Origin: a virus
DNA length: 20,339 nt
IMG/VR virus record: IMGVR_UViG_3300009527_000204
Location: 1 to 20,339 of that record
Reading direction: 5' to 3' (one strand)
A model generated the notes under the pieces. It ran no database searches and had not been told where the DNA came from. It saw only the letters and a program-made list of their open reading frames with translations. A program made the translations under genes and the position numbers. Shown piece after piece: positions 1-20,339 of the stretch. Every line of letters starts with the position of its first letter. The first letter of the stretch is position 1.

Positions 1-567
1 TCAGAACAGCGGCTGCTGGTCGCCGGCCAGTTGCCCGGCAGCACGCGCTTCGATGAGCAGCAGCTGCCGCTTGGTCTCGACGCCACCGGGCGCAGAGAAG
101 CCCGTCGCTGCGCCGCCCGCGCCCATGACGCGGTGGCAGGGCACGATGGGCGCGAACGGGTTGTGGCCTTCGGCGCGGCCGACCGCACGCGCCGCGCCGG
201 CATGGCCCAGCGCGACGGCGATCTCGCCGTAGGTTCGGGTCTGGCCGACGGGGATCTGGCGCGTCAACCACAGCGCGTCGCGGTCGAACGCCGGGACGGC
301 GCGGTCGTCCAGCTTGACGGCCAGCAGCTCACGGTGGTCGGCCGTCTCGCCGGCCAGCAGGCGCCGGATGAGGGCGATGGCCTCGCACACGGGCTCGGGC
401 GGCTCGGCCTCGGTGGCGGCTTCGAAACGGCGCTGCATCAGCTGGCGCAACGTGGCGACATCGGCGGCCGGCAGCTGCGAGCCGATCACGCCGTCGCTGC
501 CATCGCCGCGCCAGGCGATGCCGCAGTGACCGAGCGCGGTGGGGAAGACGGCGAACCGCGGCGTCAA
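1..567 (-). CDS. ogt: Methylated-DNA--[protein]-cysteine S-methyltransferase (Ogt/MGMT family)
   Basis: A 188-aa suicide repair enzyme of the cytoplasm. The family transfers the alkyl group from O6-alkylguanine or O4-alkylthymine in DNA to its own cysteine. The hallmark PCHR active-site motif is present in the segment VPCHRVMGAGG, preceded by the winged-helix recognition region (QTRTYGEIAVALGHAGAARAVG), whose arginine normally flips out the damaged base. Length matches the family. The start codon chosen is TTG (567-565); the TGA stop of dusA (571-569) lies one base upstream, so translation is probably coupled to dusA. The N-terminus TPRFAVFPTALGHCGIAW fits the usual start of the family. It is a host gene flanking the prophage, not phage cargo. 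The function call is firm; the ogt name is the generic one. Confidence 0.93.
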   Translation of the reverse strand: MTPRFAVFPTALGHCGIAWRGDGSDGVIGSQLPAADVATLRQLMQRRFEAATEAEPPEPVCEAIALIRRLLAGETADHRELLAVKLDDRAVPAFDRDALWLTRQIPVGQTRTYGEIAVALGHAGAARAVGRAEGHNPFAPIVPCHRVMGAGGAATGFSAPGGVETKRQLLLIEARAAGQLAGDQQPLF

Positions 568-568
568 C

Positions 569-1630
569 TCAAGCGCCCTGCCCCTGCCCCTGCCCCTGCC
601 CCTGCCCCTGCCCGAGCCGCGCGGCCGTCGCCATCGCGGCCACGTCGCGCGGCGGCAGCGTCTTCAGCCGGTGGTCGCTCCACACCTGCCGCCAGCGCCG
701 CGCGCCGGGCGTGCCGTTCCACAGGCCCAGCGCGTGGCGCATGGCATGCGCCCAGGAGCGCCCGGCGGCATGCACGCGTTCGAGGTAGTCCAGCCACGCT
801 GCTTCGACCTGCTCGCGCGACGCCGCAGGGTCGGGTTGGCCGAAGAAGCGCGAGTCCCACTGCGCCATGCTCCACGGCTCGTGATAGGCCTCGCGGCCCA
901 CCATGACGCCGTCCAGCACGTCGAGCTGCGCGGCAATCTCGTCCGGCGTCTTCAGGCCGCCGTTGATGGCGATGGTGAGCTGCGGGAACTCGCGCTTGAG
1001 CTGCGCCACGAGCTCATAGCGCAGCGGCGGAATCTCGCGGTTCTCCTTGGGCGACAGGCCTTGCAGCCAGGCATTGCGGGCATGGACGATGAAGACCTCG
1101 CAGCCCGCTGCGGCGACGGTGCCGACGAAGTCGCGCACGAAGTCGTAGCTCTCGTTGCGGTCGATGCCGATGCGGTGCTTGCCCGTCACCGGCAGCGTGG
1201 TCGCATCGCGCATCGCCTTCACGCAGTCGGCCACGAGTTGCGGCTCGGCCATCAGGCAGGCTCCGAACGCGCCCTTCTGCACCCGCTCGCTCGGGCAGCC
1301 GCAGTTCAGGTTGACCTCGTCATAGCCCCAACGTTCGGCCAGCTGTGCGCAGGCGGCCAGGTCGGCCGGCTCGCTGCCACCCAGTTGCAGCGCGACCGGG
1401 TGCTCTTCGGCATTGAAGTCCAGGTGGCGCGGCTGGTCGCCGTGCAGCAGCGCACCGGTCGTCACCATCTCGGTGTAGAGCAAGCTGCGCCGCGAGATGA
1501 GGCGATGAAGGTAGCGGCAGTGGCGGTCGGTCCAGTCCATCATTGGCGCGACGCTTAAGCGCCACCTACTGGGAGGAACGACCGTCATAGAGGAAATCGC
1601 CTCCCGGCGCTCTGTCTCGTTCTCGCTCAT
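569..1630 (-). CDS. dusA: tRNA-dihydrouridine(20/20a) synthase DusA
   Basis: A 353-aa FMN- and NADPH-dependent TIM-barrel enzyme that reduces uridine 20/20a in the D-loop of tRNA. Visible signatures are RLSVAPMMDWTDRHCRY near the N-terminus, the catalytic-cysteine region VNLNCGCPSERVQ, the KHRIGID and IVHARNAW segments, and INGG near the phosphate site. Two starts are possible. ATG 1630 has AGGA directly abutting it, which is a poor Shine-Dalgarno. ATG 1588 (residue 15, MTVVPPSR) has GGGAGG about 11 bases upstream and may be the real start. The residues before RLSVAPMM are probably encoded by prophage DNA. The C-terminus ends in an unusual (GQ)6GA tail encoded by a 6-bp tandem repeat, which looks disordered and is not part of the fold. 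The downstream neighbour ogt is one base away. Confidence 0.93.
   Translation of the reverse strand: MSENETERREAISSMTVVPPSRWRLSVAPMMDWTDRHCRYLHRLISRRSLLYTEMVTTGALLHGDQPRHLDFNAEEHPVALQLGGSEPADLAACAQLAERWGYDEVNLNCGCPSERVQKGAFGACLMAEPQLVADCVKAMRDATTLPVTGKHRIGIDRNESYDFVRDFVGTVAAAGCEVFIVHARNAWLQGLSPKENREIPPLRYELVAQLKREFPQLTIAINGGLKTPDEIAAQLDVLDGVMVGREAYHEPWSMAQWDSRFFGQPDPAASREQVEAAWLDYLERVHAAGRSWAHAMRHALGLWNGTPGARRWRQVWSDHRLKTLPPRDVAAMATAARLGQGQGQGQGQGQGA
576..613. repeat. Hexanucleotide tandem repeat in the 3' end of dusA
   Basis: About six perfect copies of CCCTGC (plus strand) encode alternating Gly-Gln on the minus strand, just before the dusA stop and just upstream of the ogt TTG start. The unit is 6 bp, so slippage would change the tail length without breaking the frame. 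Confidence 0.9.
1526..1560. other. Probable attL region of the prophage, inside the 5' end of dusA
   Basis: This stretch encodes the conserved dusA residues VAPMMDWTD and the codons just before them. Integrases that target dusA are known to recombine in the 5' end of the gene and lie divergently beside it, as the integrase here does. The exact core cannot be fixed because attR is outside the window. Placement is inference; the integrase next to dusA is seen. Confidence 0.45.
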
Positions 1631-1674
1631 TCCTGCGCTTTTCCGCTCGTTTTTGGGTGCGGGGGTAACATCAA

Positions 1675-1700
1675 GTGCAACACAACCACGCTTGTTGCAC
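1675..1700. promoter_or_regulatory. 8-bp perfect inverted repeat between dusA and the integrase
   Basis: GTGCAACA (1675-1682) and TGTTGCAC (1693-1700) are separated by 10 bases, immediately before the integrase ATG at 1708. It could be an operator, an integrase arm-type site, or a hairpin in the integrase leader. The symmetry is seen; its role is not known. Confidence 0.4.
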
Positions 1701-1707
1701 CGACCCC

Positions 1708-2787
1708 ATGGGCACGATTATCCCGCGCAAGAGGAAGGACGGCTCCACGGGCTACACGGCGTTGATCAGAGTCAAGCGAGGTGGCAAGGTGATCCACTCG
1801 GAGTCGGAGACCTTCGACCGCGAGCAGGCCGCCAAGGTGTGGATGCGGCGGCGGGAGACAGAGCTGGCCGAGCCGGGCGCGCTGGTGAAGAAGCCAGACC
1901 CGCCACTGGCCGACGTGATCGACCAGTACAACCGCGAGAAGCAAAAGGCGCACGGCAAGACGAAGACCCAGGTGCTCAACACCATCAAGGCGTCCAGCCT
2001 GGGCGAGCTGCCCTGCTCGCAGATCGACAGCCCCGCGCTGGTGGCCTACTTCCAGAGCCTGCCTGGCCAGCCGCAGACACGCGGCAACTATCTGTCGCAC
2101 CTGGCCTCGGTCTTCACCGTCGCCAGGCCGGCCTGGGGCTATCCGTTGGACGCGCAGGCCATGGCTGACGCGCGGGTGGTGCTGGCGAAGCTGGGGCTGA
2201 TCTCGAAGTCAAAGGAGCGCACGCGGCGCCCTACCCTGGCCGAGCTGGACAAGCTCATGGCGCACTACGAGGTCATCCAGATCAAGCGCGCAGACAGCAT
2301 CCCGATGCAGCGCCTGATCTTGTTCGCCATCTTCTCGACGCGCCGGCAGGAGGAGATCTGCAGGGTGGTCGGCGCGGACCTGGACCGCGACGCGCTGCAG
2401 TTGGTGGTGCGCGACATGAAGAACCCCGGCGAGAAGGTGGGCAACGATGTGCGCACGACGCTGACGCCCGAGGCGCTGCAGCTGATCGACACCCAGCCTG
2501 CCACCACTGGCCGCATCTGGCCCCACAACTCCGACTCCGTCAGCACGTCGTTCACCAGGGCATGCCAGATCCTCGACATCGAGGACCTGCATTTCCACGA
2601 CTTGCGGCATGAAGGCATCAGCAGGCTGTTTGAACTGGGCTGGACGATCCCGCAAGTCGCTGCGGTTTCAGGGCACAGGTCCTGGCAGTCGCTGAAGCGT
2701 TACACCCACCTGCAGCGCACCGGCGACAAGTACGCGGGCTGGCCATGGTTGACTCAGCTCCTCAAAGACGCGGCTGTATCTCGCTAG
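1708..2787 (+). CDS. Phage tyrosine-type site-specific integrase (dusA-associated)
   Basis: A 359-aa tyrosine recombinase that inserts and excises the prophage through attachment-site strand exchange. The N-terminal GTIIPRKRKDGSTGYTALIR segment resembles an arm-type DNA-binding region; a SAM-like core-binding domain follows (about residues 65-150). The catalytic domain shows the first Arg in FSTRRQEEIC, the H-L-R-H box in FHDLRHEGISRL, the second His in SGHRSW and the nucleophilic Tyr in LKRYTHLQ. ATG 1708 was chosen because integrases of this group begin with MGTI; it lacks an obvious Shine-Dalgarno. An alternative GTG start at 1675 (11 more residues) has a GGGGG run about 9 bases upstream. 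The gene is divergent from dusA, and its position marks the left end of the prophage. Confidence 0.93.
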   Translation: MGTIIPRKRKDGSTGYTALIRVKRGGKVIHSESETFDREQAAKVWMRRRETELAEPGALVKKPDPPLADVIDQYNREKQKAHGKTKTQVLNTIKASSLGELPCSQIDSPALVAYFQSLPGQPQTRGNYLSHLASVFTVARPAWGYPLDAQAMADARVVLAKLGLISKSKERTRRPTLAELDKLMAHYEVIQIKRADSIPMQRLILFAIFSTRRQEEICRVVGADLDRDALQLVVRDMKNPGEKVGNDVRTTLTPEALQLIDTQPATTGRIWPHNSDSVSTSFTRACQILDIEDLHFHDLRHEGISRLFELGWTIPQVAAVSGHRSWQSLKRYTHLQRTGDKYAGWPWLTQLLKDAAVSR

Positions 2788-2954
2788 CAACAAACCGGAG
2801 AAATAACCTACTGCATTTGTAGGCTATTGTGGCGCCAATGGCTGCGAATGGCGTATTGGTGCAGCGCGTCAAAAGGCAAGACTTGGCACGCGCTTTCAAG
2901 CGCCATCCGTGGCTTGATACGACTGCCCCGTCATAGGGAAAACGCGGCGATTTG

Positions 2955-3004
2955 TTTAGCACTCTGCTTTAGCGACTGCTAAAAACAACTGTATAAAAAC
3001 ACTG
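2955..3004 (+). promoter_or_regulatory. Candidate promoter with overlapping palindromic operator (SOS-like motif adjacent)
   Basis: TTTAGC-GACT-GCTAAA (2968-2983) is a 16-bp dyad with perfect 6-bp arms, and an extra TTTAGCA half-site sits at 2955-2961. A TATAAA -10-like box follows at 2992-2997, and a weak TTAGCG -35 (2969-2974) lies inside the palindrome at 17-bp spacing. CTGT-N8-ACTG at 2989-3004 resembles a LexA box (CTGT-N8-ACAG) but has two mismatches. If real, it would drive the plus-strand gene at 3267 through a leader of about 260 bases. Confidence 0.35.
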
Positions 3005-3115
3005 CCGTAGCGACTTCCTGCACGCAAGTCAACGTGGGGATCATGTCCTGGCCACGTGTAGCGCGCGGTGACCGACCTCAACATAATGGGCAGCAGCGAG
3101 GGCCGGAGCCCAAGC

Positions 3116-3149
3116 AAAAACGGGCTGACCCCGAAACGAGGTCAACCCG
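3116..3149 (-). terminator. Rho-independent terminator reading on the minus strand
   Basis: On the minus strand the stem CGGGTTGACC / GGTCAGCCCG (10 bp with one mismatch, 9-base loop) is followed directly by TTTTT (3120-3116). The plus-strand side lacks a T tract. It could stop late-operon transcription that reads past the methyltransferase gene and antisense through the small gene at 3267-3542. Confidence 0.55.
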
Positions 3150-3266
3150 GTCTTGTCCCTCCGAAGAGAGAAACAAAAGCCTGAACTTTTGCCGTAGCAA
3201 GTGTGAGTTTAAACGGCGGCTGCTTCCTCGGATGAGGGTTTTCACCAAAAGCCCCTAAGGACCTCC

Positions 3267-3542
3267 ATGAACAACTTGTTCATTTCCTACGATTTGCACG
3301 CTCCCGTCAAGAACTACGACCGGGTCATTTCAAAGATCAAGAGCCTGGGCGGCGTGCCAGTGCTCAAGTCAATGTGGTACTTGAAATCCACCTCCACGGC
3401 ATCAGAAGTGTCCAAGGTCATCTGGGCCGTCATGGACGCTGACGACACGCTGCTGGTTGTTGATTCAAAGAACAACAGCTTCAGCGGCTACAACCTGAGC
3501 GAGCTTGCCAAGAAGCGCCTGGTTGAAGACTGGCAGAAGTAG
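3267..3542 (+). CDS. Small Cas2/VapD-like ferredoxin-fold protein ('SinR family'-type), possible moron
   Basis: A 91-aa cytoplasmic protein. The N-terminus NLFISYDLH has the beta-strand-then-Asp pattern of Cas2 and VapD proteins (Asp9 at the place of the Cas2 metal-binding Asp). A helix (KNYDRVISKIKSLGG) and paired strands (VLKSMWYLKST) follow, and DDTLLVVDSKNNSF looks like the last strand. Small standalone proteins of this look are common in phages and mobile elements and are often labelled SinR family, a misleading name. Whether it is a nuclease is unknown. The ATG has AAGGA five bases upstream. GC is about 52%, well below the late genes, and it lies alone and opposite to them between its own candidate promoter and a terminator, which suggests separate acquisition. 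No CRISPR repeats or other cas genes are visible. The gene is firm; the fold assignment is by pattern only. Confidence 0.7.
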   Translation: MNNLFISYDLHAPVKNYDRVISKIKSLGGVPVLKSMWYLKSTSTASEVSKVIWAVMDADDTLLVVDSKNNSFSGYNLSELAKKRLVEDWQK

Positions 3543-3562
3543 ACGTTAGAGCCGCTGCATAG

Positions 3563-3586
3563 AACCCGGCTTCGGCCGGGTTTTTT
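3563..3586 (+). terminator. Strong rho-independent terminator after the Cas2-like gene
   Basis: AACCCGGC-TTCG-GCCGGG is a perfect stem closed by a stable TTCG tetraloop and followed by TTTTTT (3581-3586). It begins 20 bases after the stop of the 3267-3542 gene and separates it from the convergent methyltransferase gene. Confidence 0.88.
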
Positions 3587-3595
3587 CCTCCTGCA

Positions 3596-4384
3596 TCAGA
3601 AAAGTCCTGCCGGCTCCGCCGCTTGGTCCCAGCTCCAAATCACCAGCTCGCGCCGGTCGGCCGGCTTGCCGCCACCGCCGACGGTGTAGGTGATCTCCAA
3701 GCTTTCCATGTGGAATCCGGCGAAGCACTCGCGAATGTCGGGGTGGTCGTTGATGCTGACCAGCATCTTGCCCTTGAGCCGGCGCATCGCAGCGGCCATG
3801 GCCTCATACTCGCTGAAGGGGAAGCCGATGCCGTAGCCCTCGGTCTGCCAGTAGGGCGGGTCTGCATAGAAGAACGTGTGCGGCCGGTCGTTGCGCTCCA
3901 GGCAGGCCAGCCAGGGAAGGTTCTCGATGTAGGCGTTCGTCAGCCGCAGGTGGGCCGCGCTCAGCGTCTCCTCGAGGCGCAGCAGGTTGACCGGCGGCGC
4001 TGTGGTGGCGGTGCCCCAGGTCTGGCCCTGAACCTTACCGCCGAAGGCATGGTGCTGCAGGTAGAAGAACCTGGCAGCGCGCTGCACGTCGGTGAGCGTC
4101 TCGGGCCGCGTGTCCTGCTGCCACTTGAAGACCTCACGGCTGCTGAGCTGCCACTTGAACTGGCGCACGAACTCCTCGAGGTGGTGCTTCACCACGCGGT
4201 AGAGGTTGGTCAGCTCGCCGTTGATGTCGTTGATGACCTCGACCTCGGCCGGCGGCCGCAGGAAGTAGAGCGCTGCGCCGCCGGCGAACAGCTCGACATA
4301 GCAGCTGTGCGGTGGGAAGCGGGGGATGAGCTGGTCGGCAAGACGGCGCTTGCCCCCTACCCAGGGGATGATCGGTTGGGCCAT
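3596..4384 (-). CDS. Phage DNA N6-adenine methyltransferase (D12 class, Dam-like)
   Basis: A 262-aa SAM-dependent enzyme that methylates adenine in duplex DNA. The N-terminus QPIIPWVGGKRRLADQLI and the SAM-binding ELFAGGAALYF are the first two signatures of D12-class enzymes. The catalytic DPPY motif follows in FFYADPPYWQTEGYG. The region between would hold the target recognition domain; specificity cannot be read, so GATC is only a guess. ATG 4384 was chosen because family members start just before QPIIPWVGGK and TGGAG lies a few bases upstream. ATG 4405, seven residues longer, has GGGAGG at 8-base spacing and is a real alternative; 4453 is less likely. It is the last gene of the late operon, after the lysis genes. 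Protection of phage DNA from host restriction is a plausible role (inference). Confidence 0.88.
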   Translation of the reverse strand: MAQPIIPWVGGKRRLADQLIPRFPPHSCYVELFAGGAALYFLRPPAEVEVINDINGELTNLYRVVKHHLEEFVRQFKWQLSSREVFKWQQDTRPETLTDVQRAARFFYLQHHAFGGKVQGQTWGTATTAPPVNLLRLEETLSAAHLRLTNAYIENLPWLACLERNDRPHTFFYADPPYWQTEGYGIGFPFSEYEAMAAAMRRLKGKMLVSINDHPDIRECFAGFHMESLEITYTVGGGGKPADRRELVIWSWDQAAEPAGLF

Positions 4385-4514
4385 GTGACTCCAGGGGGGA
4401 TACATTGCGCCCGCCTCCCGGGAGGTGGCGGGGCCTTGGCTGGTCACAGGCATGGACTGTGGGTGGCGGCTGTCGACGGCGCTCCAACGCCGGCGGCGGT
4501 CGCCTCGTCTTTGC

Positions 4515-5054
4515 TCAGCGCTGGGTTAGCGCGTCGTAGGCGCGCTCGCAGGCCAGGCCGGCGGTGCGGGCTCGGTCGGCGGCTTCAGCAAGCTCTCCCG
4601 CAGCGTCGTCAATCCGACGTTGCACCTCAGTGAGCAGATCAGCGGCGGCGCTGGCTGGCGAGCTGCTCGGGGAAGCGGCGGGATCAGCGGGGGCGGGACA
4701 ACGACTGGCGGCAGCGGCGGCGAAACGGTGCTGCAGGCGCTGGCCAGCACCGTCAGCAGTGCCGCGCTCAACAGTCGTGCGGGCTTGGTCAAGTTCGGCT
4801 TCATGGGTGATCTCCGTATGGGCGGCTTTCCACCCCTGTTCCTTGGCTCGATAGGACTTGCTCGCGCTGGCGGCTGCCGCCGCGTATGCAGCGCGATCGT
4901 CTGACCTGGCCTTCTGCTCCGTGAGCACCTGGTGGCGCGCGTTGTCCAGGCGGCTCGACTGGACGGCCAGGCCGATGCACAAGGCCACGATGACCCACAC
5001 CCACCACGGCAGCTCGCGGAGGAGCGCAAGAGCGGCCTTGACGGCGGCGGTCAT
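4515..5054 (-). CDS. Inner-membrane spanin subunit (Rz-like)
   Basis: A 179-aa type II membrane protein. An uncleaved N-terminal anchor is visible at about residues 16-32 (PWWVWVIVALCIGLAVQ), followed by a long Ala/Glu/Arg-rich periplasmic helix with coiled-coil character. With an outer-membrane lipoprotein partner, such proteins fuse the inner and outer membranes in the last step of host lysis. The call is supported by its place directly after the endolysin, with the ATG overlapping the endolysin stop (ATGA), and by a lipoprotein frame nested inside it. The sequence fits the DUF2514/Rz type of beta- and gammaproteobacterial phages. Confidence 0.85.
   Translation of the reverse strand: MTAAVKAALALLRELPWWVWVIVALCIGLAVQSSRLDNARHQVLTEQKARSDDRAAYAAAAASASKSYRAKEQGWKAAHTEITHEAELDQARTTVERGTADGAGQRLQHRFAAAAASRCPAPADPAASPSSSPASAAADLLTEVQRRIDDAAGELAEAADRARTAGLACERAYDALTQR
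4526..4804 (-). CDS. Outer-membrane spanin lipoprotein (Rz1-like), nested inside Rz
   Basis: A 92-aa lipoprotein lying wholly inside the Rz-like gene in another frame. It starts MKPNLTKPARLLSAALLTVL, followed by the lipobox-like ASAC with Cys24 as the likely acylated residue. A proline-rich stretch (SPPLPPVVVPPPLIPPLPR) comes next, typical of Rz1 proteins. CGGAG lies about 7 bases upstream of the ATG at 4804. After signal peptidase II cleavage the protein would sit in the outer membrane and bind the C-terminal end of Rz across the periplasm. Embedded Rz/Rz1 pairs are the lambda arrangement; here both stops are nearly coincident. It is easily missed by gene callers that disallow overlaps. Confidence 0.85.
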   Translation of the reverse strand: MKPNLTKPARLLSAALLTVLASACSTVSPPLPPVVVPPPLIPPLPRAARQPAPPLICSLRCNVGLTTLRESLLKPPTEPAPPAWPASAPTTR

Positions 5055-5665
5055 ACAAACGCCCTCACCGCCTGCTCGAAGCGCTGGCGGCGGTCAGACA
5101 GTCCGGCCAGAGCCGGGCCGTTGATGGCCTTGGTCATGGCATCGACGTTGGACGCGTCGGCCATGGTGTTGCAGCCAGCGGCGGCCCAGTACCACCCGGC
5201 GGTCATCGCCGCGTGGATGGGCTGGGCGACGAGATCCGGCGAGGCCTTGTAGGGCTGGTTGATCGCCGCCTCGGCCGCCATGTAGTTGGCCCGGCCAGTG
5301 AGCTGAAGCAGGCCCCGGCCGCGATAGGCCCAGCCGTCGCCACTGGCTTCGTCGCCGTTGCCGTTGCGATTCGCATAGACCCTGTTGGCCAGCGCCTGCG
5401 GGTTGCGCAGCAGCTGGGCGGCGTCGCCGAGGCTCGGCACGCGCCTGGGCCACATGGCGCGCACGCGCTCGGCGGTCGTGTAGAAGAGGTTCTCCTCGAG
5501 GTGGACGAAGCCAGCGCTTTCGTGCGCGCACTGGCTGACCCAACCGGCCTCGCGCACCGGGGTGTTGATGCCGAAGTGGCGGGCGGCCGTCGACAGCGCC
5601 TCGGCGAAAAGCCGGGCTTGTGTCGGCGCGATGCCGGCGGCGATCAGGGTTGCAACGGTGATCAT
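5051..5665 (-). CDS. Phage endolysin, glycoside hydrolase family 19 (chitinase-like)
   Basis: A 204-aa peptidoglycan hydrolase that cleaves the glycan backbone during lysis. The GH19 endolysin pattern is clear: CAHESAGF with Glu49 as the probable general acid, LEENLFYTTAERV with a second Glu (57/58), ANRVYANRNGNGDEASGDGW, and YRGRGLLQLTGRANY. There is no signal peptide, so export would depend on a holin. ATG 5665 has AAGGAAGG about 6 bases upstream and starts two bases after the upstream stop; longer readings into the upstream gene have no family support. Its stop overlaps the Rz ATG (ATGA), so the lysis genes are translationally coupled. Length fits the family. Confidence 0.93.
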   Translation of the reverse strand: MITVATLIAAGIAPTQARLFAEALSTAARHFGINTPVREAGWVSQCAHESAGFVHLEENLFYTTAERVRAMWPRRVPSLGDAAQLLRNPQALANRVYANRNGNGDEASGDGWAYRGRGLLQLTGRANYMAAEAAINQPYKASPDLVAQPIHAAMTAGWYWAAAGCNTMADASNVDAMTKAINGPALAGLSDRRQRFEQAVRAFV

Positions 5666-5667
5666 GG

Positions 5668-5994
5668 TTAGCCTTCCTTGACTCTGGTGCGGAGAATGAG
5701 CACCGCGAAGCCGACGGCAATACAGACGTGCTCCAGGCTTGGCGGTGTGGGGTTGAAGAAGGGCGAGGCCAGGACGCCGGCGCCGCCCAGGGCAAGCAGG
5801 AACCACGCGGCACGCTTGAGCCAGGCCACACACACCTCGCGTGGCCGCAGCGCGGCGCGCACGGCAGGCGGCACCAATGGCGGACGCATACGCTCCAGCT
5901 TGTTGAGCGCCTCGGCCAGGATGACGAGGCCAGCCAAGCAGTGGATGGCCCACACCCACACCGGCACGGCAATGAGCACGGCGCCGGCACTCAC
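5668..5994 (-). CDS. Small membrane protein of the lysis cassette (holin or antiholin candidate)
   Basis: A 108-aa protein with about three hydrophobic segments: residues 3-26 (AGAVLIAVPVWVWAIHCLAG and beyond), 58-80 (KRAAWFLLALGGAGVLAS) and 88-101. A basic, proline-containing loop lies between the first two and a short charged tail (RTRVKEG) ends it. I do not recognise the family. Its position between another membrane protein and the endolysin, and a GTG start overlapping the upstream stop (GTGA at 5994-5991), point to a role in timing or pore formation at lysis. Which of the two adjacent membrane proteins is the holin cannot be told from sequence. Confidence 0.75.
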   Translation of the reverse strand: MSAGAVLIAVPVWVWAIHCLAGLVILAEALNKLERMRPPLVPPAVRAALRPREVCVAWLKRAAWFLLALGGAGVLASPFFNPTPPSLEHVCIAVGFAVLILRTRVKEG

Positions 5995-6383
5995 GATGTG
6001 CTCCCCGGTTGGCCAGACTGGGCCGTGCCGCTCATCTTGCGGATGGCCCAGCGCAGGAAGTGCTGGGCTGATGAGCCGACGACGAACGCTGCCCCAAGCA
6101 GGAACGACTCAGGCACCTGCATGGCGGGCGCCAGGTAGCCTGCTGTGAGGCTGGACGCGACGGCGAAGCCGATGCGGCGCCCGCTGGTGCGCAGCAGCTC
6201 GCGCCAGGTGTCTCCGGTGCTGGGAACGGCGTTGAAGAGGGCAATGGCGGCAATGGCGCCGGCAAAGCCCGCGACGAGCACGTCGGGGCGCAGGCCAAGC
6301 GGCACGCCCAAGAGCGTGATCGCGGGCACGGCCACAGTAGCCGCGACCAGCGTGCCGGTCGCAGTGGATACGGGTTCGGGCAT
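5991..6383 (-). CDS. Putative holin (130-aa multi-pass membrane protein)
   Basis: A 130-aa protein dominated by hydrophobic segments at about residues 10-31, 34-55, 70-88 and 92-108, with a short hydrophilic N-terminus (MPEPVSTATG) and a polar C-terminal tail (SGTAQSGQPGSTS). Size, topology and position two genes upstream of the endolysin fit a holin, which would permeabilise the inner membrane and release the endolysin. AAAGG lies 5 bases before the ATG at 6383. The family is not recognised with certainty; a different phage membrane protein is possible. Confidence 0.75.
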   Translation of the reverse strand: MPEPVSTATGTLVAATVAVPAITLLGVPLGLRPDVLVAGFAGAIAAIALFNAVPSTGDTWRELLRTSGRRIGFAVASSLTAGYLAPAMQVPESFLLGAAFVVGSSAQHFLRWAIRKMSGTAQSGQPGSTS

Positions 6384-7610: not shown

Positions 7611-7907
7611 CTAGTTGACGAAGACGAAAGCCGTTCGCGTCGCGCCTGCCTCTGCGAACGTTGGAAAGGTGACGACGGGGTGGCCGCTGGCGTAGCTCAC
7701 CGTGATCGCCGCCGGGCCTGACTTAGGACCGACGTGCGACCAGAAGACCGTGCGGCCGGCCCACTGCGGGTAGCTGATGACCTGCTGCGGGGCGCCATTG
7801 ACGCCGTACACCACGATGTCGATCAGCAGCGCGCCTCGGTAGAGGGCCTGGCTCGTGTCGAACTGGAACGAGCCGTCCGAGTTGAGCACTCGCTGGCCCC
7901 AAGTCAC
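7611..7907 (-). CDS. Tail-tip-associated protein of unknown function (98 aa)
   Basis: A 98-aa, beta-rich protein beginning MTWGQRVLNSDGSFQFDTS. The GTG start (7907) overlaps the stop of the tip-protein gene (GTGA), so translation is coupled. The N-terminal pattern (aromatic-Gly, two residues, Val, Gly, then Asp/Ser-Thr) is shared with two segments of the downstream lipoprotein, which suggests a duplicated domain. Similar small proteins occur after tail-fibre genes in other phages. Attachment to or maturation of the tail tip is a guess from position. Confidence 0.78.
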   Translation of the reverse strand: MTWGQRVLNSDGSFQFDTSQALYRGALLIDIVVYGVNGAPQQVISYPQWAGRTVFWSHVGPKSGPAAITVSYASGHPVVTFPTFAEAGATRTAFVFVN

Positions 7908-10900
7908 AGCAGGTATCCCGAAACGACGCGGAGGTTGCCGTCGCCGTCGAAGATGCGCTGCCGATTGGCCTCCAGCTCCTGGCGCCCACCCGACGAAGCA
8001 GTGCGCAGCAGGCCCACGTCGGCCGTGATTGCGCTGAGCTGGCTGACGCTCAATGCCTGTGCGCCAACAGACCCATTCACAAGCAGATTGCCGTTGACCA
8101 GAGCCGCCCAGGTCAGCCAGGTGCTGCCATTGAAGTACCGGCTCTGCGTAAAGCCGGCGCTCGCGTTGTACAGCGTGACGCGGTCAAGCACGACGGGCGA
8201 GCCATACCCTGCATCGCTGATCGCCGCAGCTGCTTCACTATCGCTCCAGCCGCTGCCAGAGATGGAGCGGCTGGCCTCAATGCTGCCTCGCTGGCCGTTG
8301 GTGCCATTGGCGCCATTGGCGCCAGCGGGACCTTGCGGACCAGTGGCACCAGGAGCACCGGGGGCACCGGGGGCACCGGGAGCACCATCGGCACCGTTCG
8401 CCCCATTTGCACCATTTGCACCATTGCTGCCGGCCTGGCTTTTGCTAACCGAGAAGCGTTTGGTGATGGTGCCAAAGCCACCGCGGCCAACAGTAATGTC
8501 GACATAGCCCGCAGGCGTGCCGGCGGCAAGCCCGTCGATAGTGACGGTGTAGCCGCTGCGGCTGGCGCTGACGCCGCTACTGGCGGAGATCGAAGGCGTC
8601 CAGTTAGCGGTGTCATCGGTGATGCCGACGTAGACGGCAATGGTGCTGCTGTTGCCGGCGTAGCTGGTGACGTTGCCTGCTGGGTCAGCAGGAAAGACCG
8701 TGGCCTCGTTGCTCAACGTGGCGGTAACCGCAGGCGCCCCATCCGTACCATTTGCGCCGGGCGCGCCGTCCGCGCCCGGGGTGCCCGGCGCACCAGGCGA
8801 ACCGGGGGCACCTGGGGCACCTGGGGCACCTGGGGCTCCGGGTGCTCCGGGTGCTCCTGGCGCACCATTGGCGCCGGACTGCCCGTCGCGCACCTTGACG
8901 ATGGTCGTCTCAGCGCTGTACGTCGCCACGGTGTCCGTGACGGTTGCCCGCACTGTGATGCTGTCGGTCAGCATGCTGGCCGCCTCAACGCTGACGACGT
9001 CACCACTGCCGGTGATGCTGGCCGTGCCGCTGATGACGGACCAGTTGACGCTCCCGGCCAGTAAGCCGGTTCGTTTCGCGGTCAAAGTGATCGAACTCGG
9101 ACTGACTCCACCGGCGGCGGGATACTGAAACGTCAGCGCAGAGGCGTGGACCAGCAAGCTTTTTCCCGCGATGCCGGGCAGCAGCTGGGCCATGGCGCCC
9201 GTGACGGTGTACGTGACGGCGGCCACCTCGCCGAGGCTCTGCTGACCGCCGCCGAAGACGTTGAAGCTCGTGAACTTGAAGTGGAGCGTGCTGCCGATCA
9301 GAGAGAGATCGAGGTCGCCGCTTTTGACGACCAAATCATCGACCCGGACAAAACGGTCCCCTGCGCTGTGAGCGCTTTGCAGGGTGCCGTAGGCGCCGCG
9401 CACCAGACCGCCGAGGGTATAGGCGCCCGCGCCCACCAGGGCCGAGGTTTCGTAGGCGAAGTACTCCTGCGCGCCAGGGCCGACCCAGCACAGCGTTTGC
9501 AGCGTGGCGGCATCTTCTGAGCTGCCGCCAAGCAGCTGTTGGCCGCCCAGGCCCTGCACGCCGACCGTGCTGCTGATTGCGCCGGCGAGATAGCCGTAGC
9601 GCGCAGAGCCTGTGACCGTGCCGATCTGGCGGTAGTTCAGACCGTCCAGGCTGACATGCACATGGCAGCCGCCCCACGATGGCCCGCTGCCGCGAACAGC
9701 AACGTAGACCTCGAGCCCCGTGCGTGTGAGCTGGGCCGGCGCCTCGAAGATGACGGGCTCGTCAGTGTTGCCCGGCGCCGCGTTGTAGTCTGGCGAGTAG
9801 CCAGAGCCAGCCTGGGCACCGTAGCGGGGCGCGGTGGCGGTGCCGATGGGGGCGTCCTCGGCCACGATGGCGATGCGGCGGTCGTCAAGCTCCTCGACCT
9901 CAAGGATGCGCACGGGCCGGCGGAAGAGCCCGCGGCTTGGCTCGGTGAGGGTGACGAGGCGCAACGGCCGCAGGCGGCAGAACTGCCAGGTGAGGTTGAA
10001 CTCGTAGCGGTTGCGCTTGACGAGTTCGTCTTGCACCAGCTGCTGCGCGATCTGGGCGCCGATGGCAGGGTCTTTGACCTCGGGGGCGGCGATGGCCGGC
10101 TTCTCGCGACGGCCGAAGGTTTCGATGCTGGCCAGGTCGTCACGCGAGATGGGCTGCTTGGCGTAGCCGGACGCGCGGTTCTCGATCTCGAGGGTGATGA
10201 CGTTGAAGCCGACGTCGTCGCTGTTGGCTGCGGAGGACTCGGCGCCCAGGCCGTGGTGGCGGCGGATGCGGACCGAAGGCTCGCCGTCGTCGGGCTTGAA
10301 GTGGTCCAGCGTCAGGTCAAAGTCGGGCGTCACCTCGGCCGTGAAGCTGGCGCCGTGGGCGCTGAGGTCTTCGTCGCCCAGCGGCACCAGCTCAATGGCA
10401 GAGCCGGTGTACGCGGCCTTGGTGTTGGTGAGCATGAGCAGTTGGGCCAGCCAGTCAAGACAGCTGCGTTGCTCCGTGAGCACGGGACTGAGCCACAGAC
10501 CGGCGGCGCGGCAGTAGGCCTGGTAGCGGTCCAAGCCGAGCAGCCGCTCGGCTGGCCAGCCGCCGCCGGAGCGGGTGTCGGTGAGGAGGCGTTCAACAGC
10601 CAGACGCGGGTCACCATCCAGCACGGTGCCGGCACCGGGGACGCTGCCCAGGCCGCCGGCGTCCAGCTCGAAGTTGTGATTGGGCAGGCTGGCGCTGCTG
10701 TCGAGTTCGTAGGCCTGGGCGTAGGCGTAGGCCAGGCCGCTGTAGCCGAGGGCCTTGCTGGGGGCGTTGGTGGACAGCCAGCTCCAGACGGCCTGGCCGA
10801 TGTTGCCGAGCTGCAGGGACAGGCCGCCGGCGGCGAAGCTGGCGAACTGGCTCTTGCCGCGCCACATGGCGCCAGAGCCCACGAGAGGCCCCCTGGCGAG

Positions 10901-11140
10901 CGCGATGAGCACCGAGGCCTGGTAGGTGTAGCTGACGGTGGTTTGCGAGCCCCCACCGCCCTTGCCGCCGCTTTGGGTCTCGCTTTGCTTGATCGCCTTG
11001 AAGGCGTTGTAGTCGAGCAGGTTGCCGGCGACGCGGCCGCGCCCGGTGAGCACCCAGGGGATGGTCTTGCCGTACTCGCTGCCCTGGATGCGAACGCCGC
11101 TGAGGCTCGGCTGCTCGTTGGTGAAGTTGGAACCGCCCAT
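7904..11140 (-). CDS. Tail tip/host-specificity protein with two collagen-like blocks
   Basis: A 1078-aa protein at the place of lambda J or gene transfer agent gp15, last of the tail-tip set. The N-terminal part (MGGSNFTNEQPSLSG, then IPWVLTGRGRVAGNLLD) and the following region up to about residue 600 look like the hub/tip core. From about 650 come beta-sandwich-like domains, then a collagen-like block of 17 Gly-X-Y triplets (753-803), a domain of about 100 aa, a second block of 16 triplets (904-951), and a C-terminal receptor-facing segment with GNLLVNGSVGAQALSVSQL. Such triplet blocks trimerise in phage fibres. ATG 11140 was chosen because upstream in-frame residues are Arg/Pro-rich shadow sequence and the ATG overlaps the peptidase stop (TGATG). 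It probably determines host range. Confidence 0.9.
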   Translation of the reverse strand: MGGSNFTNEQPSLSGVRIQGSEYGKTIPWVLTGRGRVAGNLLDYNAFKAIKQSETQSGGKGGGGSQTTVSYTYQASVLIALARGPLVGSGAMWRGKSQFASFAAGGLSLQLGNIGQAVWSWLSTNAPSKALGYSGLAYAYAQAYELDSSASLPNHNFELDAGGLGSVPGAGTVLDGDPRLAVERLLTDTRSGGGWPAERLLGLDRYQAYCRAAGLWLSPVLTEQRSCLDWLAQLLMLTNTKAAYTGSAIELVPLGDEDLSAHGASFTAEVTPDFDLTLDHFKPDDGEPSVRIRRHHGLGAESSAANSDDVGFNVITLEIENRASGYAKQPISRDDLASIETFGRREKPAIAAPEVKDPAIGAQIAQQLVQDELVKRNRYEFNLTWQFCRLRPLRLVTLTEPSRGLFRRPVRILEVEELDDRRIAIVAEDAPIGTATAPRYGAQAGSGYSPDYNAAPGNTDEPVIFEAPAQLTRTGLEVYVAVRGSGPSWGGCHVHVSLDGLNYRQIGTVTGSARYGYLAGAISSTVGVQGLGGQQLLGGSSEDAATLQTLCWVGPGAQEYFAYETSALVGAGAYTLGGLVRGAYGTLQSAHSAGDRFVRVDDLVVKSGDLDLSLIGSTLHFKFTSFNVFGGGQQSLGEVAAVTYTVTGAMAQLLPGIAGKSLLVHASALTFQYPAAGGVSPSSITLTAKRTGLLAGSVNWSVISGTASITGSGDVVSVEAASMLTDSITVRATVTDTVATYSAETTIVKVRDGQSGANGAPGAPGAPGAPGAPGAPGAPGSPGAPGTPGADGAPGANGTDGAPAVTATLSNEATVFPADPAGNVTSYAGNSSTIAVYVGITDDTANWTPSISASSGVSASRSGYTVTIDGLAAGTPAGYVDITVGRGGFGTITKRFSVSKSQAGSNGANGANGANGADGAPGAPGAPGAPGATGPQGPAGANGANGTNGQRGSIEASRSISGSGWSDSEAAAAISDAGYGSPVVLDRVTLYNASAGFTQSRYFNGSTWLTWAALVNGNLLVNGSVGAQALSVSQLSAITADVGLLRTASSGGRQELEANRQRIFDGDGNLRVVSGYLL
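8288..8431. repeat. Second collagen-like repeat block (16 Gly-X-Y triplets)
   Basis: On the minus strand this encodes triplets such as GAN, GAP, GAT and GPQ without interruption. At DNA level it is an imperfect 9-bp tandem array (variants of GCACCGGGG on the plus strand), prone to recombination or copy-number change. Confidence 0.9.
8732..8884. repeat. First collagen-like repeat block (17 Gly-X-Y triplets)
   Basis: An uninterrupted run of 17 triplets, mostly GAP, within the tip protein gene. Near-identical 9-bp units (GGGGCACCT variants) are repeated in tandem around 8806-8865. It follows a KVRDG linker, a common way for phage fibre proteins to enter a collagen-like segment. Confidence 0.9.
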
Positions 11141-11598
11141 CAGATGGCCTTGGCAAAGAGGGTGAAAGCGCGCATGTCGCGGCCGGCAAAGACAGCGGCG
11201 TCGAGCCGGTCCTGGGTGACCTCGCCGGCCTGCGCGAGGGCGTGTGCGACCTCGAGGTGCTCGCCGCGCTGCACGACGAGGCCGGCGTGGCTGAAGGTGC
11301 GGCCAAAGCGCCAGACGAGCACGTCGCCTGCCTGCAGCGGCTCGCCGGCGGCCATCGGGCGCAGCCAGGCGTCGAGGCCGGCGAGATAGACCTCCTCGCT
11401 GCGATGGAGGTGCCACTGCGGCGCATAAGGCCGGGGGTCGAAAGCAGCGGGCAGCGCGCCGCAAGCCTTGAAGACGGCCACCAGCAGCATCAAGCAGTCG
11501 ACGCCGACGCCGTGCACGCAGGCCTGGTGGTGATAGGGCGTGCTGATCCAGCGCTGGGCTTCTTCCTGAAGCAGCGCGCGAAGGTCGAGGGGGGTCAT
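11140..11598 (-). CDS. Tail-tip NlpC/P60-family peptidase (gp14-like)
   Basis: A 152-aa cysteine peptidase predicted to cut peptide cross-links of the cell wall during DNA entry. The catalytic Cys35 lies in GVDCLMLLVAV and the catalytic His104 in FSHAGLVV; His119 (EVAHA) fits the third position. The conserved LQAGDVLVW lies before the His. ATG 11598 was chosen because homology begins at MTPLDLRALL and it sits one base past the upstream stop (11602-11600); the longer frame to 11772 is Arg/Ser/Pro-rich shadow. Its stop overlaps the tip-protein ATG. In the Rhodobacter gene transfer agent the peptidase occupies the same slot between hub and tip protein. Confidence 0.9.
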   Translation of the reverse strand: MTPLDLRALLQEEAQRWISTPYHHQACVHGVGVDCLMLLVAVFKACGALPAAFDPRPYAPQWHLHRSEEVYLAGLDAWLRPMAAGEPLQAGDVLVWRFGRTFSHAGLVVQRGEHLEVAHALAQAGEVTQDRLDAAVFAGRDMRAFTLFAKAI

Positions 11599-18179: not shown

Positions 18180-19586
18180 TCAGGCGCCGGGGTTCTTGAA
18201 CAAGCCGCGGAACTCGGTCGCCTTGGCGGCGAAGTCGAGGCGCGCCTTGATTTCGAGGCCGTCCACATCGAAACCCATGCGCTGCTCGGTGTAGAGGCCC
18301 TCTTCGCCTTCCAGGTAGGCGTACTCGACGGTGCGGATGCGGGACGGATCGGCGGCCAGGAACCATTCGAGCGGGTTGACGGCGTCGAGGCGGGGCTCGA
18401 CGACCAGCTCGTAGGCGTTGGAGAAGACGTTGACGTCCGCCGACTTTGCGGCCACCAGCAGTGCGCTCAGCAGCTTGCGCGCTTGCAACTCGCGAGCTGC
18501 GCTGACGATCAGGTAGCGGGCGACCAGGTTCAGCGGCTGGTTGTTGCCGCCAAAGTCGGTCTGCTTGCGCATGGCCTGCGTGGCTTCGTCCAGCGTGGTC
18601 TCGGTGATGCCGCCGGCGGTGCCGAGGTTCTTGTGGTCCGCGTGGAACAGCGCGACGCCGTCCGCCATCACGGCGTTGGCCTTCAGCACGTTGTAGACCG
18701 TGTCGCTCTCGAAGTCGGCAGCAGCGCGGCCGTACATCTCGGGGATCGAGCTGAGGGCGTCAAGGTCGTCGTTGATGACCGTCTGGCGCGTGATGCCCAC
18801 CACCTTGCCGTACGTCGCGAGCTGGATGGTCTCGCCGGCGTCGCTGATCTTGCCGCGCTTGAACTCGCCGAACTCGTTGGTCTTCTCGAGGGCAAGGCTC
18901 GCGGCGATAGCCACGCGAGTTGCCGGGCGGAAGTCAGACAGCGTGCCCTTGCGCGCCCAGGGACGGAAGGTTTGGCCAGCACTGGTGTAGGCCTCACGCA
19001 GCGTGCGATTGACGGTGTTGGCCAACGCGATGCTGAAGTCGCTGGTGCCGTGCATGGAGCGGAAACCCATGTCGTCGCTGTTGCCCATGGCCAGCGAGAC
19101 CATGGCGTTGCGGCTCATGCCTTCGGTGTTGACGCCCTGCAGCTCGAGGCTGCGGCGAGCCAGCTCGAACAGCGTGAAGCCGCGAAAGCGCCGGGCCGTC
19201 TCGGGCAGCGCGACAGTGGAGTTGGCACGGTGGGCCAAAGCCGCAGACATGTCGGCGCGGCGCTGCTGCTGCTCGTCCTGCGTGGTGGTGATGGCAGCGG
19301 CGCTGCGCGTGGGGCCGGTGTTGTTGGAGCGGGTCTCCAGCAGGCCGAACATCTCGGCGCGGGCGGCGTCGACGGTGATGCCGCGCGTGATCATCGACTC
19401 GACTTGTTCGTCGCTGATCAGCTCACCCTGCACGGTGCGGCGGAAGGCGCCGACGGCCGCGCGGATGCCGGCGGAGCGCGTGCGCTCGGCCTGCACGGCG
19501 GCCTCGGTGGCGGCGGCGGACGCCTGGGCCTGGGCGCGGGTGGCGGCCTCGGCAGCCGCTTGCGCTTGGAGTTCTTCGGGGGTCAT
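18180..19586 (-). CDS. Possible internally initiated scaffold-capsid protein (same frame)
   Basis: Within the capsid fusion gene, codon 252 is ATG (MTPEELQAQAAAEAAT) and is preceded by CAGGAG with a 6-base spacer, an excellent Shine-Dalgarno. Translation from here would give a 468-aa protein holding the coiled-coil scaffold-like part and the capsid domain but no protease. This would make surplus capsid subunits, much as lambda obtains Nu3 from within C. The start signal is seen; use of it is inference. Confidence 0.5.
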   Translation of the reverse strand: MTPEELQAQAAAEAATRAQAQASAAATEAAVQAERTRSAGIRAAVGAFRRTVQGELISDEQVESMITRGITVDAARAEMFGLLETRSNNTGPTRSAAAITTTQDEQQQRRADMSAALAHRANSTVALPETARRFRGFTLFELARRSLELQGVNTEGMSRNAMVSLAMGNSDDMGFRSMHGTSDFSIALANTVNRTLREAYTSAGQTFRPWARKGTLSDFRPATRVAIAASLALEKTNEFGEFKRGKISDAGETIQLATYGKVVGITRQTVINDDLDALSSIPEMYGRAAADFESDTVYNVLKANAVMADGVALFHADHKNLGTAGGITETTLDEATQAMRKQTDFGGNNQPLNLVARYLIVSAARELQARKLLSALLVAAKSADVNVFSNAYELVVEPRLDAVNPLEWFLAADPSRIRTVEYAYLEGEEGLYTEQRMGFDVDGLEIKARLDFAAKATEFRGLFKNPGA

Positions 19587-20339
19587 GGAACGCTCCTGTG
19601 GAGTGGTGGTTGTGGCAACAGCGGCTGCTGCTGGGTTGGGGGAAACGTTGGCGGCGAGCGCAGGGGCGTCGCGGGTGACGAACTCGCAGGGGAAGCTGCG
19701 GCCGCCGACAGCGCGTGAGGCCAGCTCGCGCAGCTGCTCGAGGTCGGGCCCGGTGCCCTCCCCCATCGCCCGTACGCCAGCCAGCGGGTCGGCGCCAATG
19801 GGCACGAGGGATTGCTCGACGGGTTCCCAGTCGATGGCCTTCCAGATGGGCAGGCCGCCCTCGACCTCGGGGTCGAGCTTCATGAAGCGGTGGACGATGT
19901 AGCCGACCGAGATGTGCCGGATGATCTTGTTGACGACGTCGCGCCAGATGGCGTTGACCTCTTCGTCGCGGTCACTGAAGCGGCAGACGCTGCGGCCCTC
20001 GGTCGCCTCCATCCACGCCTTCTCGGTGACGCCGAGCACGCTGGACAGGCTCCACTGCTGGTGGCTGTTGAGCAGCGGCGCGCCGCCGTTCATGCGGTCG
20101 AGCCGGATGTGCGTGGGGTCGAGGCTCAGCTCCTCGAGGTAGTAGGTGCCGGTCCACCAGTCATAGCGACGCACGCGTGCGCCGGTGGTCCACACGGTCT
20201 CGAAGGTGCGGGCGTCGGCATCGATGGTGGCGACGGGGACGGCGCGCGTTTGCAGCGGCAGGCTGCGCTGCTCTGCGGCAGGCGCGGCCAGCGCGATGGC
20301 CGCCGCTGCTGCAAGGGCTACTGCGGTTTGTTGGGGCAT
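18180..20339 (-). CDS. Prohead protease/major capsid protein fusion
   Basis: A 719-aa structural polyprotein. Residues 25-190 look like an HK97-type serine protease: His93 in NSHQQWSL, Ser144 in RHISVGYIV, and Glu175 in EPVEQSLVP at the places of the catalytic triad. Residues 240-310 form a Thr/Ala/Gln-rich, coiled-coil linker like a scaffold or delta domain. Residues from about 400 to the end are the HK97-fold capsid subunit (TLSDFRPATRVAIAASLALE, VALFHADHKNLG, VVEPRLDAVNPLEWFLAAD). Fusions of this kind are known in phages of Proteobacteria. The N-terminal 20 residues are Ala-rich and are not judged to be a secretion signal. The ATG is the last codon of the window, so a longer N-terminus cannot be excluded. 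Confidence 0.88.
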   Translation of the reverse strand: MPQQTAVALAAAAAIALAAPAAEQRSLPLQTRAVPVATIDADARTFETVWTTGARVRRYDWWTGTYYLEELSLDPTHIRLDRMNGGAPLLNSHQQWSLSSVLGVTEKAWMEATEGRSVCRFSDRDEEVNAIWRDVVNKIIRHISVGYIVHRFMKLDPEVEGGLPIWKAIDWEPVEQSLVPIGADPLAGVRAMGEGTGPDLEQLRELASRAVGGRSFPCEFVTRDAPALAANVSPNPAAAAVATTTTPQERSMTPEELQAQAAAEAATRAQAQASAAATEAAVQAERTRSAGIRAAVGAFRRTVQGELISDEQVESMITRGITVDAARAEMFGLLETRSNNTGPTRSAAAITTTQDEQQQRRADMSAALAHRANSTVALPETARRFRGFTLFELARRSLELQGVNTEGMSRNAMVSLAMGNSDDMGFRSMHGTSDFSIALANTVNRTLREAYTSAGQTFRPWARKGTLSDFRPATRVAIAASLALEKTNEFGEFKRGKISDAGETIQLATYGKVVGITRQTVINDDLDALSSIPEMYGRAAADFESDTVYNVLKANAVMADGVALFHADHKNLGTAGGITETTLDEATQAMRKQTDFGGNNQPLNLVARYLIVSAARELQARKLLSALLVAAKSADVNVFSNAYELVVEPRLDAVNPLEWFLAADPSRIRTVEYAYLEGEEGLYTEQRMGFDVDGLEIKARLDFAAKATEFRGLFKNPGA

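Follow-up and report, generated by a model that had tools for sequence, protein, structure and literature searches.

The window analysed here, a 20,339-nucleotide stretch of viral DNA (IMG/VR record IMGVR_UViG_3300009527_000204), carries a small cas2-like gene, cas2L, between a tyrosine integrase gene and a D12 adenine methyltransferase gene. A Dus gene (PF01207) adjoins the integrase, and as read from the ORF map of the window, the strong genes other than cas2L and the integrase are all located on the minus strand. The locus comprises the following features:

1708–2787, plus strand: tyrosine integrase (PF00589) beside dusA, left border of the cargo slot
2955–2983, no strand assigned: operator-like repeats, a TTTAGC half-site at 2955 and the palindrome TTTAGC-GACT-GCTAAA at 2968–2983
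2992–2997, plus strand: candidate −10 element TATAAA, with a weak −35 element (TTTAGC) 18 nt upstream
2998–3266, plus strand: 5′ leader of cas2L, about 260 nt, with no convincing ORF
3121–3149, minus strand: intrinsic terminator for leftward (late) transcription, inside the cas2L leader (z −5.0)
3267–3542, plus strand: cas2L, 91 aa, PHROG_1090, from ORF, profile and fold evidence
about 3563–3587, plus strand: intrinsic terminator of cas2L (−17 kcal/mol, z −3.4)
3597–4453, minus strand: D12 adenine methyltransferase (PF02086), last gene of the late operon and right border of the slot

The cas2L ORF is intact, starts with ATG, and has an AAGGACC-like Shine-Dalgarno sequence directly 5′ of the start. 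A preliminary description of this DNA had singled out a lower-GC gene (about 52%) beside an integrase. The composition is borne out, with 52.2% GC in cas2L and 53.5% in the region 2955–3586, compared with 65.1% in the integrase, 66.2% in the methyltransferase and 68.0% in the rest of the window, and the integrase is confirmed by Pfam. Elsewhere in the window, the host dusA gene contains a hexanucleotide repeat, (CCCCTG)n at 575–611, which gives its product a C-terminal Gln-Gly tail and could vary in length. On the minus strand, a 719-aa ORF at 18180–20339, open at the window end, resembles a fusion of prohead protease and major capsid protein, and a 1186-aa tail-tip-like protein (7904–11464) contains two collagen-like GAP-repeat stretches.

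The two terminators that had been proposed to flank the gene, one on the minus strand and a strong one on the plus strand, both fold significantly. The cas2L terminator has the structure AACCCGGC-TTCG-GCCGGGTTTTTT. The leftward hairpin, read on the minus strand from 3149 to 3121, has 13 pairs followed by T5 (−28.6 kcal/mol), and is weaker on the plus strand (−18.5 kcal/mol) because G-U pairs are lost. As for the suggested promoter/operator, the palindrome and half-site are real, and the TTTAGC/GCTAAA hexamers are unique to this site within the window, but the promoter falls short of what was suggested: the −35 element matches at three of six positions with a spacing of 18 nt, and a strict sigma-70 scan of positions 1–6000 returned no promoter. 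In the leader, the search for a same-strand ORF with a ribosome site ahead of cas2L was negative, and the 74-aa ORF at 3034–3258 has no match in plasmids. An RNA partner for cas2L was considered and rejected, since Rfam gave sub-threshold chance matches only and the whole leader folds no better than shuffled sequences (z −0.96).

The window protein matches PHROG_1090, a phage protein family without known function, with an E-value of 1.5e-19 (residues 1–87 against profile positions 1–86 of 90), and the PADLOC Cas2_II profile with 1.5e-4. It has no match in Pfam and none to the NCBIfam cas2 models; among 28 diverse homologues, seven match CRISPR_Cas2 (PF09827), the best at 9e-7. Homologues were gathered from phages, plasmids, bacterial genomes and IMG/VR, and a tight four-sequence alignment served as the query for scanning the bacterial genome and IMG/VR collections. 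A DNA-level search of 2780–3600 in phages gave nothing relevant. Plasmid matches to the family include shrimp-disease Vibrio plasmids, and in a survey of Burkholderiales the family is present in only 5 of 399 genomes. Tyr8, Asp9, Leu10 and Asp60 are invariant in the 28 homologues, which settles the question of Asp9 conservation raised earlier, and Tyr17, Ile24, Ser35, Trp37, Asp57, Leu62 and Val64 are nearly invariant; the window copy keeps all family-invariant residues. Enterobacterial members have dN/dS values of 0.03–0.32, from few substitutions, indicating purifying selection.

Structure prediction and fold search bear out the 91-aa Cas2-like ferredoxin fold proposed in the preliminary description. 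The AlphaFold2 model, calculated from 22 sequences, has a pLDDT of 94.5 and a pTM of 0.85. The best Foldseek matches are Cas2 chains, with a probability of about 1.00 and E-values of only 0.007 and up, and the top 12 rows in VIA-align are all Cas2 structures (Z 8.0–8.8), with BPSL1038 (Z 7.3) and GhoS (Z 6.3) appearing in lower rows. PDB sequence searches gave weak matches only, BPSL1038 among them (E 0.1). Profile alignment against genuine Cas2 proteins from the genome searches gave an E-value of 0.0011 and an hhalign probability of only 21%; despite this low probability, three motifs are colinear, pairing YDL with YDV, kVQKSxW with RVQxSVFE, and D.nDsL with D.eDsL. Asp9, at the end of strand 1, occupies the Cas2 catalytic position and aligns with the Cas2 YDV motif, and the QKSxW-type turn is kept (Ser35, Trp37). 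These results place the window protein in the Cas2 superfamily, as a divergent member. In the earlier label "Cas2/VapD-like" the first term holds, while the second is less apt, as Cas2 chains outrank VapD structures and a VapX/VapW-type partner is missing.

The window is a fragment; in it, neither Cas1 nor a CRISPR array or other spaced direct repeats were found. A VapX/VapW/VapY-type antitoxin gene was not found adjacent to cas2L, nor a second Cas2-fold ORF of the VapW kind in the window. On these grounds we do not regard cas2L as a CRISPR adaptation gene, or as part of an established toxin-antitoxin pair.

Related proviruses were fetched by means of the two bordering genes, 11 with integrases that are 52–72% identical to that of the window and 80 with D12 methyltransferases that are 65–88% identical. 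cas2L is absent from all 91. A survey of the neighbourhoods of dusA-type integrases shows that it is not a standard companion of these enzymes (0 of the 11 integrase relatives). Atypical composition, absence from close relatives and an own terminator show that cas2L is moron-like cargo, and the solo status attributed to it earlier also agrees with the terminators on both sides and with homologues that lie mostly opposite lytic genes. The slot following the D12 methyltransferase is variable among the relatives (45 slots sampled). One slot contains a type VI retron (RT 1.6e-88, HTH 2.5e-35), another a type II restriction-modification system whose nuclease is EcoO109I-like, and a third PD-Lambda-5 A and B (8.8e-227); a further type II methyltransferase and one more reverse-transcriptase profile were also matched by slot proteins, members not being separated. 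Cargo slots of this kind were recorded at L093:4928–6317 (−), L096:6146–8650 (−) and L119:5031–7507 (+). Among the relatives whose lysis cassettes are closest to that of the window, the slot has a different recombinase in L115 and L122 and an integrase of the window kind in L144.

In other phages, the homologue is a lone gene that mostly faces the lytic genes. The homologue loci include the Z region of P2-EC53 and R18C, Mannheimia 587AP2, Enterococcus phiFL1A, Klebsiella phi4.1, Staphylococcus SN8 and Pasteurella Pmp11, and in three E. coli elements (L057–L059) the homologue adjoins a tyrosine integrase. When PADLOC was applied within 3 kb of the homologues at about 30 sampled loci, it detected Thoeris (ThsA 1.4e-200, ThsB 1.3e-68), a BfiI-type restriction enzyme with its methyltransferase, HEC-08, two capP proteins and an orphan methyltransferase. 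The Thoeris pair is located in Shewanella (L017:2724–4657, plus strand), about 340 bp upstream of the cas2L homologue, and the BfiI-type genes were assigned to locus L015 from the sequences. These raw occurrences are only suggestive of an association with defence.

About half of the homologue loci have a small ORF (40–85 aa) upstream of cas2L. In the P2-type loci this ORF is DUF3606 (PF12244, 2e-18), a "GRDAxTGQF" family of 40–50 aa precedes cas2L in L015, L022, L024 and L025, and another family is present in L012. Recurrent small upstream ORFs were noted, for instance, at L004:3766–3942 and L024:4817–4939. In several loci an intrinsic terminator lies between the small ORF and cas2L. The upstream ORFs are mutually unrelated, and they are absent in the window, which argues against an obligate antitoxin; the enterobacterial version may still belong to a toxin-antitoxin pair.

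We give an even chance to the reading that cas2L is an autonomous lysogenic-conversion gene, encoding a solo Cas2-fold nuclease that acts in superinfection defence or growth control. The predicted role is based on the slot and on the neighbours of the homologues. The gene lies in the cargo slot bounded by the integrase and the late-operon end, and in the lysogen its candidate promoter would drive its transcription. Its product would form a homodimer in which the paired Asp9 residues cut nucleic acid, either RNA or DNA, and this solo nuclease would protect the lysogen from superinfecting phages, or restrain growth once one is sensed. After induction, antisense late transcription would oppose cas2L and end at 3121; from the layout, late transcripts are expected to cross cas2L before reaching that terminator, unless stopped earlier. 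Counting against the lysogenic-conversion reading is the weakness of the promoter, and against a defence role that recognised defence genes occupy only about 4 of the 45 methyltransferase slots. Many Cas2 and VapD proteins have nuclease activity only in vitro, where its purpose is unclear, and this weighs against a nuclease acting in defence. More tentatively, PHROG_1090 as a whole might be an unrecognised anti-phage system of a single gene (or with a small partner), its solo Cas2-fold nucleases being borne by phages, prophages and plasmids in defence slots, among them the fun(Z) locus of P2-like phages, and working without Cas1 or CRISPR, a proposal that we consider possible but doubtful.

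Because VapD and Cas2 are homologous, and one VapD is toxic in an Asp7-dependent manner while VapDs induce SOS (PMC11980593), the protein might instead be a VapD-like toxin that serves for addiction or growth inhibition, its antitoxin being a small protein or RNA encoded in the leader. The ORF of 40–85 aa that precedes cas2L in enterobacterial and some other homologues would fit such a module. Yet these ORFs are often split from cas2L by a terminator, they share no relationship and about half of the loci lack them, and in the window there is no such ORF, the 74-aa leader ORF being matchless and the leader fold unexceptional; with neither a VapX/VapW homologue nor a second Cas2-fold gene in the window, we find a toxin rather unlikely. 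A regulatory ribonuclease similar to GhoS, or a housekeeping RNA-processing factor, acting on phage or host mRNA and not in defence, is suggested by the presence of GhoS, a Cas2-fold endoribonuclease antitoxin, among the structural matches, and by the position of cas2L antisense to the 3′ end of the late transcript. However, relatives with the same integrase or methyltransferase manage without cas2L, so that this type of phage does not need it, and the family occurs in unrelated phages, plasmids and genomes, which makes such a function distinctly unlikely.

A protein that binds or bridges DNA without catalysis, such as one that helps the integrase as Cas2 helps Cas1, could explain why cas2L adjoins the integrase here and in the three E. 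coli elements; Cas2 scaffolds Cas1, and spacers can be acquired without its nuclease activity (PMC11980593). This is highly improbable, since the homologue lies away from the integrase in R18C and in the Mannheimia and Klebsiella phages, and the invariance of Asp9 suggests catalysis. An integrase accessory protein in particular is rejected on account of the 52–72% identical integrases, all 11 of which come from proviruses without cas2L. That cas2L is a decaying passenger ORF without function might be proposed from its low GC content and lone position, the DNA-level search in phages having given no close relative from which to measure selection on the window copy, but the ORF is intact with its invariant residues and a confident fold, related copies have dN/dS below 0.35, and the family is widely spread, leaving this explanation with very little probability.

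Solo Cas2-fold proteins as such are already known, as exemplified by VapD, BPSL1038 (PMC10491678) and the staphylococcal phage copies annotated "Cas2". Such proteins are frequent, with no settled biological role, and the present family ties them to a position for cargo that recurs in temperate phages, next to recognised defence systems. What is new is that, as shown by modelling, PHROG_1090, including the moron at the fun(Z) locus of P2, has a predicted Cas2 fold together with this recurrent position. It has been proposed that Cas2 arose from a toxin or defence nuclease that stood alone (PMC3506569), and the cas2L family bears on the question raised there.

Compared with CRISPR Cas2 (PF09827), the window protein shares the fold (Z 8.8), the Asp at the catalytic position, the QxS turn and the D..DsL motif, but its gene is not accompanied by Cas1 or an array within the window, the protein is below Pfam detection, and it has W in place of F in VQKSxW. 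With VapD of the VapXD, VapWD and VapYD families it has in common the Cas2-type ferredoxin fold, the conserved Asp and Ser, and the frequent stand-alone gene, VapD proteins being found with various antitoxins as well as on their own (PMC11980593). The window differs in lacking a VapX/VapW/VapY gene, and the structural match is weaker than to Cas2 (9kan at Foldseek rank 28). GhoS also has the Cas2 fold, whereas the window contains no ghoT partner and the proteins show no sequence match. BPSL1038 of Burkholderia pseudomallei (PDB code 7vxr) is likewise a solo Cas2-fold protein with an Asp in the same place, from a genome without known CRISPR (PMC10491678). Its D-X20-SST motif (PMC10491678) is absent from the window protein, where the spacing from Asp9 to Ser35 is 26 residues and Ser35 belongs to a K-S-M-W turn (LKSMW) with no SST, and the identity is 15%.

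The R18C locus is where P2 carries its fun(Z) immunity gene, and the two ORFs there were called morons for which PSI-BLAST gave no clue (PMC6823313); a predicted fold can now be assigned to the one that belongs to PHROG_1090. Most of the P2-type region is present in 102 of 5,426 complete E. coli genomes, and because of these copies the function is testable in laboratory E. coli. The P2-EC53/R18C protein (a 279-bp ORF in R18C) is 44% identical to the window protein, and is also encoded by a lone low-GC cargo gene opposite the late genes. In the fun(Z) locus, however, the P2-type copies are preceded by a DUF3606 ORF and then a terminator, whereas the window copy stands partnerless between integrase and methyltransferase.
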